Part shown: positions 9,169 to 14,990 of the stretch, in pieces | Numbering within the stretch: the stretch's first letter is position 1 | Layout of the letters: every line of letters begins with the position of its first letter | Assembly (NCBI GenBank): GCA_021734395.1 | Contig: JAIPJB010000005.1 | Coordinates: forward strand, 1-64,000 | From: Candidatus Altimarinota bacterium | GTDB lineage: Bacteria > Patescibacteriota > Gracilibacteria > UBA4473 | Length of the DNA stretch: 64,000 nucleotides | Reading direction: 5' to 3' | Made by a program: the position numbers and the translations under genes | The notes under the pieces: model-generated | Databases searched by the model: none | Told to the model about the DNA's origin: nothing | What the model saw: only the letters and a program-made list of their open reading frames with translations

Positions 9169-9705
9169 ATGAAACAAACCTTTCTTCTGCTTCATGGTTG
9201 GGGTGGGAATGGTTCAGATCATTGGCAGAATTTTCTGTCATCATTTCTAAAACAAAAAGGAAAACGAATCGTGTCTCCTCACTTTCAAAATCCTGATACT
9301 CCGGATTTATCACAATGGCTTCTGCAATTAAAATCATTTCTTGAGAACTTATCACCTTCTAATGTGATTATTGTCGCGCATAGCTTAGGTGCTGCGCTGT
9401 GGATTCATTTTGTGTCTCAACATCCAAGCTTTCAATCATCAAAAGCATTTTTAGTAGCTCCCACTCCAGATGATTGTGGGATTTCTGAAATTCGTTCTTT
9501 TTTTCCTCTTCCTTCGGTGGAGTTAAATTCTTCTTCTGTGGTAGTGGCATCCACAAATGATCCGTATATTTCTTCTGAAAAATGCAAACTATTGGCTCAA
9601 AGTATAGGTGCACAATTTCAGACACTTTCTAATGCCGGTCATATTTCGCCTGATTCAGGGTTTGGCCGATGGAAATGGATCGAGCAGAAGTGTTTAGAAG
9701 CTTAG
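9169..9705 (+). CDS. RBBP9/YdeN-like alpha/beta hydrolase
   Basis: This 178-aa serine hydrolase is of the RBBP9/YdeN type. The N-terminal LLLHGWGGNGSDHWQ contains the oxyanion-hole HGWG motif. The nucleophile elbow is VAHSLGAAL (residue Ser about 71). The acid is probably in STNDPYIS and the histidine in LSNAGHIS. These enzymes are small cytoplasmic hydrolases with poorly known substrates. The gene ends tail-to-tail with the VirB4-like gene, the two stop codons sharing the four bases TTAG. Confidence 0.88.
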   Translation: MKQTFLLLHGWGGNGSDHWQNFLSSFLKQKGKRIVSPHFQNPDTPDLSQWLLQLKSFLENLSPSNVIIVAHSLGAALWIHFVSQHPSFQSSKAFLVAPTPDDCGISEIRSFFPLPSVELNSSSVVVASTNDPYISSEKCKLLAQSIGAQFQTLSNAGHISPDSGFGRWKWIEQKCLEA

Positions 9706-11783
9706 TCTTTCTCTTTTTCGCTCTTTTTTTGCAATTGAGCTTTGAGCATTTCTTTTTCTTGTTTCTTCATCTGGAGGAGTTCTTCGGGATCAGTCGTGAT
9801 GATTTTGTGCTCGCCATAACTGGCAATCACCTGAATAGCCACGTGTTGATTTCCGGCAAAAAATAGTCCTTGTCCGATACCAGAATTAATCAAAAGATAT
9901 TTTTCTCCTTCGGTGAGATTAAAAACTTTCTTGAGTTTTTCCATGGCTACGGGCGCCTGACGCATCAGTATTTGCATCGAAGAGTTTGTAATAATGGGTT
10001 TTCCCCAGCGACTCTCTAAGAAGTCCTCTACATCTTGCGTGATGGTCGTAATTCCCAAGTAGTATTTTCGGGCGCGTTTCGTGAGATTATGCAGAAATCG
10101 TCCAGAATCTTCGTATTGCACCATATGCCAGGCCTCATCAATGACGAGTAGGCGTCGCTTGAGTTCGGATCGGATACGATTCCAGATAAAGTTCAAAAGA
10201 ATGTACATGGCGACGGGTCGAAGCTGTTCTTCCAGATCGCGAATACAAAAGACAATGAGTCCTGTTCCCAGATCAACATTGGTTTGATCCGAAAAAAGTC
10301 CGGAAAAAGTTCCTTTGGTATATTTCTCTAATCTTGTGGCGAGACCTTTTCCGCCTTCCATGGATTTGAGAACATTTTCCAAATCTCCCATTGTGGGCAT
10401 TTCGTACTCGTGTGGATTTTCAGTTTTGGATGTAATTCCTTTCAGTTCATATGTCTGGAGTATGGCTTTATCCATCAGAGCTTCTTCCTCGGGATTCAAT
10501 TTTCCCAGCATGACATTCATGAGCCCCGAGAGATTAATCGCGCTTTCACGCAATAATTCCCCAGCTTGGGTATCATCTTTATCAACCGGCAGGGGCAGAT
10601 CAAATGGATTGATACGTTGATCGGATGTCAGTGATACACGGATATAGCTTCCGCCTACTGTTCGCGACAGAGATTCGTATTCATTTTCCGGATCAATGAC
10701 CACGACATCGGTTCCCATCATGAGCGAACGTAACAGTTCGAGTTTCACGGCGTATGATTTACCGGCACCCGATTTCGCGAAGACCACTTGATTGGCATTT
10801 TCGAGCTTAAATCGATCGAAAATAATTAATGAATTGTTATGCCGATTGAGCCCGTAGAGGATTCCTTCATTTGATGTGAGATCATTGGAGACAAACGGAA
10901 ATGTGGTCGAAAGAGGACCAGTATTCATATTTCGGAATTCCTCAATCATGTCCGTTGCTTGGGGGAGCGTCGTTTCAAACCCTCGTTCGACACGGAAGTC
11001 AGCACTTCGAGTCATAATCAACTGCCCGCCCAAAATGGTTTCGAGTTGTTTCGAGGTTTTTTCGAGTTTTTCTTGGTCTTCGGCATAGACGGTAAAGTAC
11101 ACGCCGACCTGGAAAAATTTTTCGGTTCCGCGCTGAATATCTACACGCAAAGATTCTGCATCTTCTAAGGCTGTGTCGAGTGCCACATCATTGACCACTC
11201 CTCGTTTTTGATTCATGCGTTTGCTCGAGAGCATTTCAGCAACCTTTTTGCGCAGGATTTTCATCATGCGTGAGGGATCAGTAGGGTAGACAAAGACGGA
11301 GATATCAAGCGTTGCATCAAAATTAATCAATTGGTTCATCCATCCACTTTCCAAAAAACGAGGATAATTGAATACAAAAAAACTTTTTACATGCATTCCG
11401 TTCAATTTCATGTCATAGGTTGATGTCTCCACAGATGAGGGAGCGATCAAATCTTTCACCGAAACGATTCCATTTTGATAGAGTTTTTCAGCATCTATAA
11501 TGCGTTTTCGCATCTGAGAAGTGAGCTTTTTCTTGTCGTGCTGAGGATCAAAATTTTCAAAAAATTCATCCAGATCTCCGATTTGTTCTTCGAGTTTTTT
11601 GTCTTGTTCTGCTTCGTTTTTTTTGTCTTTTCCCAAAACATTCTCCCACTTTTTTTTCAGTGATTCGGCAACGCCAAATTCTGTCGATCCCTTTTTCTCG
11701 ACATTGGTAATCGTTATTTTCCCGACCTGAGAGTTTTGACTCTGAGATGTATTTTGCTGTTTGGCTTTTGTTTGTTCGACCAT
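9702..11783 (-). CDS. VirB4/TraC-like type IV secretion ATPase
   Basis: This is a hexameric P-loop ATPase of the VirB4 family that powers type IV secretion or related envelope machines. The 693-aa protein has a charged, Gln/Lys-rich N-terminus, a VirB4 N-terminal domain and the Walker A motif FAKSGAGKSYAVK near residue 336. Walker B is RLLVIDEAWHM near residue 551. The terminal 25 residues are rich in Lys, Glu and Gln. No other type IV secretion gene lies beside it. Orphan VirB4 homologues are common in CPR genomes. The ATG at 11783 was chosen over a longer frame because a TATAAT promoter lies at 11806-11834. Confidence 0.87.
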   Translation of the reverse strand: MVEQTKAKQQNTSQSQNSQVGKITITNVEKKGSTEFGVAESLKKKWENVLGKDKKNEAEQDKKLEEQIGDLDEFFENFDPQHDKKKLTSQMRKRIIDAEKLYQNGIVSVKDLIAPSSVETSTYDMKLNGMHVKSFFVFNYPRFLESGWMNQLINFDATLDISVFVYPTDPSRMMKILRKKVAEMLSSKRMNQKRGVVNDVALDTALEDAESLRVDIQRGTEKFFQVGVYFTVYAEDQEKLEKTSKQLETILGGQLIMTRSADFRVERGFETTLPQATDMIEEFRNMNTGPLSTTFPFVSNDLTSNEGILYGLNRHNNSLIIFDRFKLENANQVVFAKSGAGKSYAVKLELLRSLMMGTDVVVIDPENEYESLSRTVGGSYIRVSLTSDQRINPFDLPLPVDKDDTQAGELLRESAINLSGLMNVMLGKLNPEEEALMDKAILQTYELKGITSKTENPHEYEMPTMGDLENVLKSMEGGKGLATRLEKYTKGTFSGLFSDQTNVDLGTGLIVFCIRDLEEQLRPVAMYILLNFIWNRIRSELKRRLLVIDEAWHMVQYEDSGRFLHNLTKRARKYYLGITTITQDVEDFLESRWGKPIITNSSMQILMRQAPVAMEKLKKVFNLTEGEKYLLINSGIGQGLFFAGNQHVAIQVIASYGEHKIITTDPEELLQMKKQEKEMLKAQLQKKSEKEKD

Positions 11784-11865: not shown

Positions 11866-11894
11866 TTGACATTTTTTTAAAAACTTTGTATATA
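11866..11894 (+). promoter_or_regulatory. Near-consensus promoter of the leader RNA/P-type ATPase
   Basis: TTGACA, a 17-bp spacer and TATATA form one of the best promoters in the window. The predicted start near 11901 is about 435 nt before the ATPase start codon, so a long untranslated RNA is made. Confidence 0.75.
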
Positions 11895-11900
11895 AAAAGC

Positions 11901-12260
11901 GCACATCTTTTTCACAGTAAATCGTTTCGCAAAAATTTGAGACTTAGAGGTGTGATATGCGCTTTTTACCGCACATGTGCTAATATTTTAGCACAGGGAG
12001 GTTTGATCTGGGCTTACAGATCATCTCGCCTGCCATCCGAAGATCAATTTTTAGGAGCGTATCTTCTCGCTCACAGATTGTGTTTTTGTGTTCAAAGATT
12101 ATCTGGAGTAAGGGTATGAGAGAGAAACTGTCTTTCTCTCGAAATCCGAGAAAAGCTACTGTCGGATGGGAGAGGAAGGCAGGGAGGAGGGGGGAATACA
12201 ATATTCTATTCTCTCCTGCTCCCGACCTTCCGGTTATATCGTGCGGATTAAAAGAACAAA
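11901..12260 (+). ncRNA. Candidate structured leader RNA or independent ncRNA
   Basis: No protein-like ORF is seen between the promoter at 11866-11894 and the ATPase start. The region is dense in hairpins. A 5' stem pairs GCGCACATC with GATATGCGC (to 11962). Other stems are GTGCTAA/TTAGCAC (11977-11994), TGATCTG/CAGATCA (12004-12023), GAGAGAAA/TTTCTCTC (12120-12140) and a 58-nt hairpin at 12174-12231. TTTCTC (12133-12138) can instead pair with GAGAAA (12148-12153), so two hairpins exclude each other, as in riboswitches. It does not match the RNase P, tmRNA, SRP or common riboswitch motifs I know. It may be a regulatory leader of the ATPase gene or a separate RNA. No U-tract terminator was found. 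Confidence 0.5.
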
Positions 12261-12335
12261 TCATTATACCATAAAAAAATAATAAAATCAAACACTTTGG
12301 GATGATGGAAAAGTTCAGTACAATAGAAAAAAAAC

Positions 12336-14990
12336 ATGACAGGACTTTCTTCTTCCGTCGCCCGTAGTCGTTTGCAGCAATATGGGAAAAATGCGCTCAG
12401 AGTAAAAAAAACACATCCTTGGTGGAAAATACTTTTTGGGCAATTTACCGATGTTTTGGTTCTTCTCTTGGTTGCTGCTTCTCTTATTTCTTTTGTACTG
12501 GGGGAGAAAACAGATGGAACGGTTATTCTCTTTATTGTTGTACTCAACGCGGGAATAGGTTTTTTTCAAGAATTTCGAACTGAGCGCACCATCGAGGCTC
12601 TCAAAAAAATGATCCACCCTCAGATTCGAGTATTTCGTGATGGGAAAGAAACCTTGCTCTCGACAGAACTTTTGGTGCCGGGCGACATTGTTCTTTTAGC
12701 CGAAGGGGATAAGATTCCTGCTGACGGAATTTTACGGGAAGTTCATCAATGTAAAGTCGAGGAGTCGGCTTTGACGGGAGAATCTGTCCCTGTGGAAAAA
12801 AAAGAATCCGAAGAGGTTTTTATGGGGACGTCAGTCGTTCATGGTTCAGCGGTTTTTGAAGTAGTACAGACAGGTATGAAAACCCGATTTGGGAAGATTG
12901 CTGAGCTCACGACTTCTACCATTCAGGTTCGATCACCACTCCAAAAAGAACTCGCCCACATGGGTGTGTTTGTGACACAGCTGACAGCGGTAATCTGTGT
13001 GGTGCTCTTTTTTATGAGTTTGTGGCGAGAATCCACGCTTTTGGACAGCTTGCTTTTTGCAGTTTCAGTGGCTATTGCGGCAGTTCCTGAAGGGCTTCCG
13101 ACCACCATTACCATTGCTTTGGCATTAGGGGCGACGGTTCTGGCTCGGAAAAAAGCGATCATGAAACGACTTTCGTCAGTAGAAACATTGGGCGCGGTGA
13201 CAACGATTTGTTCGGATAAAACTGGCACTCTTACTCGCAATGAAATGACGGCTCGTGAAATATATTTAGCGGATCGATCTATTTTTCATGTGTCGGGGGG
13301 AGGCTATGATCCCCACGGAAAAATCGATTATATTGGAGGAAGTATCAATTCTTCTTTTCGAGAAAATTTACTGGATCAATTACTTGAGGTATGCCTTCAG
13401 TGTAACGAGGCCAAACTCGAGAAAAAAAATCACCGCTATCATGTTTTGGGCGATCCGACCGAAGGGGCGCTTTTAACATTAGTCGGGAAGGACAGTCTTT
13501 CTCGATTATCGCGAGCAGGGAAAGGGATCCATGATATTTTTCCTTTTGACTCTGAAAGAAAGATGATGTCGGTCATTGCGGAGAACAAATATCAAATACC
13601 AAATATCAAAGGACAAAAAACAAAAAATAAAAAGCAGTTATTAATTTTGGTCAAAGGATCTCCAGATCAGGTTCTCGCGCACTGTACTCATTGGTCGGAT
13701 GGAAAAAAGATACATGTTTTGACCGATGCCAAGCGCAAAAAGATACACTCTCATTACGAGCGCATGGCGGGGAACGCTCTGCGAGTTTTGGCTTTTGCAT
13801 CGAGGGAGGCGAAAGTCAGTGAGAAAATTTCTTCCGAAAAGGAAGCCGAAAAAAACCTCACATTTCTGGGATTGGTAGGGATGATTGATCCTCCCAGAGA
13901 AGAAGTGCGTTCGGCGGTTGAGAAATGTCGCACTGCTGGCATCAGAACGGTTATTATTACCGGTGATTTCGGCGTGACGGCTGAGGCTATTGCTCGAGAG
14001 CTAGGAATTGTTCGTGGAAATAAAGTCAGGGTCCTCACGGGTGATCAGATACAAAAACTCAGTGATAAAAAATTATCAGCTCTCCTGCGAGAGAAAGAAA
14101 AGGCTCTTATTTTTGCGCGCAGTATGCCGGAACAGAAAATGCGTGTCGTAAAACTCCTCCAGTCTCATGGAGAAATAGTGGCGATGACCGGCGATGGGGT
14201 CAACGATGCTCCCGCGCTCAAAGCGGCTGATATCGGTGTTGCAATGGGTATTGCGGGGACGGATGTTTCCAAAGAAGCCGCCACAATGATTTTAACCGAT
14301 GATTCTTTTGCTTCGATTGTCACGGCTGTGGAAGAGGGGAGACGGATTTATGAAAATCTAAAGAAATTTGTCTGGTTTATTTTTTCCTGCAATATCGGTG
14401 AACTTTTTGTTATTTTTTCGGCGATCGTCTTTCAGTTTCCACTTCCCTTGACGGCGATTCTTATTCTCTGTGTGGATCTGGGGACCGATATTCTGCCGGC
14501 GATTGCATTGGGCGTGGATAGCGGAGAAGAAGATCTGATGCACAAAAAACCACGCGATCCGAAACAACGAGTTATGAACAAAAAATTTGTTCAATATTTT
14601 TTGCTGGTTGGTGTGACGATTGGGATTTCAGTGACGGGGGCATTTCTCTGGTCGCTCTGGAGTGATGGCTGGTGGTGGGGAGATGGATTTGATCAAAATG
14701 TAGAACACGCCCGCAGCGTTGCCTTCACGGCATTGGTTTTTGTGCAGTTAGTCAATGCCTTTTCCGCTCGCAGCGAAAAAAAATCTCTCTTTCGAGGAAA
14801 GATGGATAATCATTTTCTTATCCTTGCCGTACTGTCGTCGATTTTAATGGTCTTCCTCATGCTCTATGTCCCTTTCCTCAATCGCACACTCGGAACCTCT
14901 CCTCTCGGAGGAATGGATTGGATAGCTGTAGCAATAGCAGCGCTTTTGCCGTTACTCGTAATCGAGATTCGAAAAAAAATAATCAATTAG
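12336..14990 (+). CDS. P-type cation-transporting ATPase, Ca2+ type
   Basis: This 884-aa membrane pump uses ATP to move cations, most likely Ca2+ (type II P-type ATPase). The actuator-domain motif LTGESVPVEK is near residue 147. The ion-binding M4 motif VPEGLPTT is near 251, the phosphorylation motif CSDKTGTLTRNEM near 293 and the hinge TGDGVNDAPAL near 617. About ten membrane segments are visible. The PEGLP motif and the missing N-terminal metal-binding CxxC domain argue against heavy-metal pumps. The N-terminus is short and starts directly in the GLS...YGKNAL region. An in-frame stop just upstream supports this. The N-domain holds an insertion of about 18 residues rich in Lys, Gln and Asn (13584-13636). 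Confidence 0.93.
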   Translation: MTGLSSSVARSRLQQYGKNALRVKKTHPWWKILFGQFTDVLVLLLVAASLISFVLGEKTDGTVILFIVVLNAGIGFFQEFRTERTIEALKKMIHPQIRVFRDGKETLLSTELLVPGDIVLLAEGDKIPADGILREVHQCKVEESALTGESVPVEKKESEEVFMGTSVVHGSAVFEVVQTGMKTRFGKIAELTTSTIQVRSPLQKELAHMGVFVTQLTAVICVVLFFMSLWRESTLLDSLLFAVSVAIAAVPEGLPTTITIALALGATVLARKKAIMKRLSSVETLGAVTTICSDKTGTLTRNEMTAREIYLADRSIFHVSGGGYDPHGKIDYIGGSINSSFRENLLDQLLEVCLQCNEAKLEKKNHRYHVLGDPTEGALLTLVGKDSLSRLSRAGKGIHDIFPFDSERKMMSVIAENKYQIPNIKGQKTKNKKQLLILVKGSPDQVLAHCTHWSDGKKIHVLTDAKRKKIHSHYERMAGNALRVLAFASREAKVSEKISSEKEAEKNLTFLGLVGMIDPPREEVRSAVEKCRTAGIRTVIITGDFGVTAEAIARELGIVRGNKVRVLTGDQIQKLSDKKLSALLREKEKALIFARSMPEQKMRVVKLLQSHGEIVAMTGDGVNDAPALKAADIGVAMGIAGTDVSKEAATMILTDDSFASIVTAVEEGRRIYENLKKFVWFIFSCNIGELFVIFSAIVFQFPLPLTAILILCVDLGTDILPAIALGVDSGEEDLMHKKPRDPKQRVMNKKFVQYFLLVGVTIGISVTGAFLWSLWSDGWWWGDGFDQNVEHARSVAFTALVFVQLVNAFSARSEKKSLFRGKMDNHFLILAVLSSILMVFLMLYVPFLNRTLGTSPLGGMDWIAVAIAALLPLLVIEIRKKIIN
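13584..13636. repeat. A-rich low-complexity insertion in the P-type ATPase
   Basis: Short units resembling CAAATATCAAATACC followed by GGACAAAAAACAAAAAAT encode KYQIPNIKGQKTKNKKQ within the nucleotide-binding domain, between MMSVIAEN and LLILVKGSPDQ. Relatives join these two segments with a short turn, so this looks inserted. Confidence 0.5.

Follow-up and report, generated by a model that had tools for sequence, protein, structure and literature searches.

Genomic context of the intergenic region

The window analyzed in this work, a stretch of 64,000 nucleotides from Candidatus Altimarinota bacterium, contains approximately 500 nt of gene-free DNA between the gene for a VirB4-like conjugal transfer ATPase of the CD1110 family (9702..11783, minus strand) and that for a P-type cation ATPase of the Ca2+ type IIA (12336..14990, plus strand). 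Both strands of this DNA are strongly structured, far beyond chance, with z-scores of -9.13 for the plus strand (11895-12335) and -8.35 for the minus strand (11880-12262), and in both cases none of 100 shuffled sequences was as stable. The initial annotation, which had described a long structured stretch with some 435 nt free of genes, agrees with these data. It had interpreted the region as a leader made from the plus strand ahead of the P-type ATPase gene, possibly a metal riboswitch of a new class, that starts at a near-consensus promoter. This promoter-like pair is indeed present on the plus strand (11866..11894), with TTGACA at 11866, TATATA at 11889 and a spacing of 17 nt. A separate plus-strand pair, TTGGGA-16-TACAAT (12297-12324), ends 12 nt before the ATG of the P-type ATPase gene and has no further support. 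The VirB4-like gene is preceded by a promoter-like pair of its own (11834-11806, minus strand).

Several genes of the window carry a TATAAT-like box very near the start, which suggests leaderless mRNAs, and a Shine-Dalgarno-like sequence was seen at 2 of the 44 first-ATG starts of ORFs of at least 200 amino acids. Many in-frame TGA codons occur in the VirB4 gene of several other genomes, among them G030, G032, G050 and G058, which fits TGA recoding in parts of the class.

A probable conserved transcription unit on the minus strand

Most of this region is taken up, on the minus strand (11894..12257), by a putative non-coding RNA that is about 365 nt long and has homologues in 15 further genomes. 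It extends from a conserved GTTCTTT to a T-run, both ends having been assigned from the sequence. Its predicted promoter (12263..12291, minus strand) consists of TTGATT, a 17-nt spacer and an extended TGG-TATAAT element, and matches the consensus at 10 of 12 positions. The same layout is found in most of the 16 genomes, with the consensus TTGAtt-17-TGgTAcAAT followed by a start resembling GTTCTTT on the minus strand; the promoter is weaker in G010 and G012. The length of the homologues ranges from 253 to 559 nt, and a large insertion accompanies the upper value (G010). The homologues share no common ORF, and a peptide-coding gene was therefore ruled out.

The RNA appears to end in a terminator hairpin followed by a T-run (11894..11967, minus strand). 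All nine outer pairs of this hairpin covary, its inner CAC/GUG alternates with CCC/GGG among genomes, and a CCUC(U) at the start of the loop and an A5 bulge are conserved; the pattern recurs in the newly found homologues G002 and G006. It is the minus strand that carries the conserved promoter, the start motif, the covarying helices and the predicted 3' terminator. The G-U pairs point the same way, since the minus-strand reading gave 21 G-U cells and no A-C cells in helices that were picked by hand. In G012 and G018, which were among the first relatives found, the conserved unit is co-oriented with the VirB4-like gene and not with the ATPase gene.

These observations make it most improbable that the P-type ATPase gene has a riboswitch leader on the plus strand. 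The stable plus-strand fold and the TTGACA/TATATA pair, present in four genomes, would agree with such a leader, but the conserved signals and the G-U pairs agree with the minus strand, and the ATPase gene has the separate promoter-like pair mentioned above. Furthermore, the RNA is not an ATPase leader because it lies beside other genes in two genomes and adjoins the P-type ATPase gene in only 4 to 5 of the 16 (G000, G001, G009 and G012, and also G004 as judged by the first residues). Nothing points to a metal riboswitch, and the RNA is kept where the ATPase gene is not its neighbor.

The TTGACA/TATATA pair could, however, serve another purpose in the subclade of the window, namely, transcription of an antisense RNA across the 3' hairpin, by which the RNA of the minus strand would be controlled. 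The pair is kept with differing spacer sequences in G000, G001, G012, and G018, and the terminator hairpin bears a T5 on the plus strand as well. Against this, the pair is missing from the other 12 homologues and its TATA is partly a by-product of the T-run, so that we regard transcription of both strands as unlikely.

The main rival to a stand-alone RNA is a cis-acting leader or attenuator, in which a two-state fold controls terminator read-through into virB4. In 14 of the 16 genomes the VirB4-like gene is indeed the downstream neighbor on the same strand. However, its own promoter-like pair is located past the terminator of the RNA, extra sequence or ORFs intervene between the two in G004 and G001, and in G002 and G006 the RNA sits away from VirB4 (the contig of G006 is short). 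Moreover, a conserved antiterminator that overlaps the terminator was not observed, and we judge this explanation improbable. A stand-alone non-coding RNA gene, recognizable by a promoter and terminator of its own and by its independence of the neighboring genes, is what the sequences point to; we consider it probable that this is a two-state RNA of a new family.

Predicted structure of the RNA

The core of the model is an H-type pseudoknot (12039..12072, minus strand) with the stems S1, GAGCG/CGCUC, and S2, GAAGAU/AUCUUC, and an A-rich linker. Among the homologues, this takes the form of a hairpin GAGNN/NNCUC whose loop pairs with a segment some 9 to 14 nt downstream, across the A-rich linker. 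S2 comprises 6 to 8 pairs in all 15 genomes tested; the pseudoknot of the sixteenth, G012, is ambiguous, and this genome was excluded from the test. When loops and partners were swapped among genomes, none of 100,000 combinations attained the observed total, and in alignment A4 seven of seven S2 pairs show changes on both sides. The pseudoknot is preceded by an A-rich single-stranded stretch (12076..12091, minus strand), which is conserved in the aligned homologues.

A CU-rich strand, termed X (12178..12190, minus strand), has two overlapping partners in all 14 genomes tested. In state A, X (12190-12178) would pair with the upstream strand 12231-12213 to form the hairpin P1 (12174..12231, minus strand), which corresponds to the 58-nt hairpin of the initial annotation. 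In state B, it would pair with GGCAGGCGAG, the 3' strand of the long-range helix LR (12025..12034, minus strand), which is located downstream, next to the pseudoknot. Both pairings were examined by means of duplex energies: LR gave -183.4, compared with -136.5 +/- 8.1 for swapped combinations, and P1 gave -188.0, compared with -149.9 +/- 8.8, the true combinations surpassing all 20,000 swaps in each case. These results hold after three close or similar members are dropped. A cruder test of LR based on the longest helix gave 18 of 100,000, and 632 of 100,000 with a reduced set. P1 and LR overlap by 4 to 11 nt in each of the 14 genomes and are therefore mutually exclusive. When a single strand has two mutually exclusive partners, each with covariation of its own, this is the mark of a bistable RNA, and the covariation indicates that this two-state fold on the minus strand is conserved. 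The energy model, which does not consider pseudoknots, favors P1 in nearly all full-length folds. Of the mutually exclusive hairpins proposed initially, the sequences GAGAGAAA and TTTCTC are present and competing pairings do exist, but the strands involved are others, namely, X and its partners in P1 or LR on the minus strand.

X is located just before P2, formed by CUUCCUCUC...GAGAGAAAG with a conserved C-A mismatch (12132..12178, minus strand). The sequence of P2 is nearly invariant and shows little covariation; the helix is lost or altered in G004, G007, G011, and G013.

The helices were located by eye, and the swap tests were made on the natural letters at positions chosen after inspection. 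The rows of alignments A3 and A4 were fitted to one another by hand trimming, which biases the pair counts towards structure. Less biased are the swap tests and the homologues G002, G006, and G008; the latter three were found with a model that lacked the S2, P1 and LR pairs, and all three pairings fit there.

Distribution

Homologues were gathered from the DNA that precedes the VirB4-like gene and by model searches. Of the 20 genomes of a single Gracilibacteria family, 16 carry the RNA, that of the window included (G000-G004, G006-G013, G015, G016, and G018). It was not found in G005 and G014, and the assemblies of G017 and G019 do not cover the stretch upstream of VirB4. Outside the family, no convincing member was detected with model R1 in 353 genomes of the class, with ten candidates scored per genome, or with model R2 in 37 genomes; a diverged relative could escape detection, since the known copies of G004 and G011 scored weakly with R2. 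Model matches in G177, G021, G030, G040, G043, G094, and G022 were weak and chance-like when inspected. An exact-pattern scan of 84,980 genomes returned five records of the Gracilibacteria group and four others, which is about the number estimated by chance, and most of the named records that contain the core pattern bear the label Candidatus Gracilibacteria. A phage origin was considered and rejected, as viral contigs gave no match. Small text searches of open-access papers yielded no account of an RNA of this kind from Gracilibacteria. So far, the RNA thus appears to be a new family confined to one Gracilibacteria family of tiny uncultured bacteria.

Possible function and relation to known RNAs

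Transcription would start at the minus-strand promoter of the RNA and end at its terminator, and P1 would form first as the RNA is made. X might then be shifted into LR/P2 once the RNA is complete, or by the binding of a protein, another RNA or a ligand, closing the pseudoknot core, and the exposed CCUCU loop and the A-rich strand may be contact sites. A function in trans is favored because the neighboring genes vary; that the RNA acts through this loop and strand, as a regulator or as a scaffold of a ribonucleoprotein, is a tentative proposal. It is likewise conceivable, at about the same level of confidence, that Gracilibacteria possess here a lineage-specific RNA machine, pseudoknotted, two-state and trans-acting, that has no counterpart in model bacteria. 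In the most likely reading, the RNA is new, specific to this lineage and either trans-acting or of a housekeeping kind, with a function and target that we infer. An anti-Shine-Dalgarno mimic via CACCUCU was also considered and is a weak candidate because of the few Shine-Dalgarno starts counted above (2 of 44), which is a crude test.

Known RNA families were compared using Rfam. A scan of the window returned tRNAs only, the region itself gave only chance-level matches to other families at E values up to 10, and the homologous loci scanned gave no match. The Mn, Mg and NiCo riboswitch families had no match at the gathering threshold at the locus, in line with the initial annotation, which had seen none of these motifs. 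Its suggestion of a new class holds for a structured RNA outside the known Rfam families and fails for a metal-riboswitch leader. A diverged form of a known housekeeping RNA would account for the length, the stand-alone gene and the family-wide presence but is very unlikely. RNase P RNA has a good RF00010 match and tmRNA an RF00023 match (C3:127970-128387) elsewhere in the genome, and neither has one at the locus. The 6S RNA model (RF00013) gave no match at the locus and weak sub-threshold matches elsewhere in four relatives that carry the RNA. For SRP RNA (RF00169/RF01854), no match was obtained, and the GGAA tetraloop motif of domain IV is absent from the 13 homologues checked. SRP RNA went undetected, with the small or the large Rfam model, in any of 20 genomes of the class, which would favor such an origin but is a lead only because the same search missed some control genomes, such as B. 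subtilis.

Large structured bacterial RNAs of obscure function have often proved to be important machines or regulators. The present result sets right an earlier, plausible interpretation of the region as a metal riboswitch that governs an ion pump, and the structural model, with a pseudoknot and two exclusive covarying pairings, is directly testable by probing. Like 6S RNA, the new RNA is a stand-alone, structured and housekeeping-like non-coding RNA, but it is about twice as long and has a pseudoknot and an A-rich strand. It is comparable to tmRNA in length and in having an H-type pseudoknot with an A-rich part, whereas a tRNA-like domain or tag ORF is not visible. With riboswitches and attenuators it shares one strand with two exclusive partners; it differs in that it stands alone and its downstream gene is not fixed. 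GOLLD, ROOL, OLE, and raiA are large orphan bacterial RNAs that have a complex conserved fold, are of unknown function and are often lineage restricted. The new RNA resembles them in its complex conserved fold and its restriction to a lineage, but it has no Rfam match, is smaller than GOLLD and ROOL, and belongs to a different host group.
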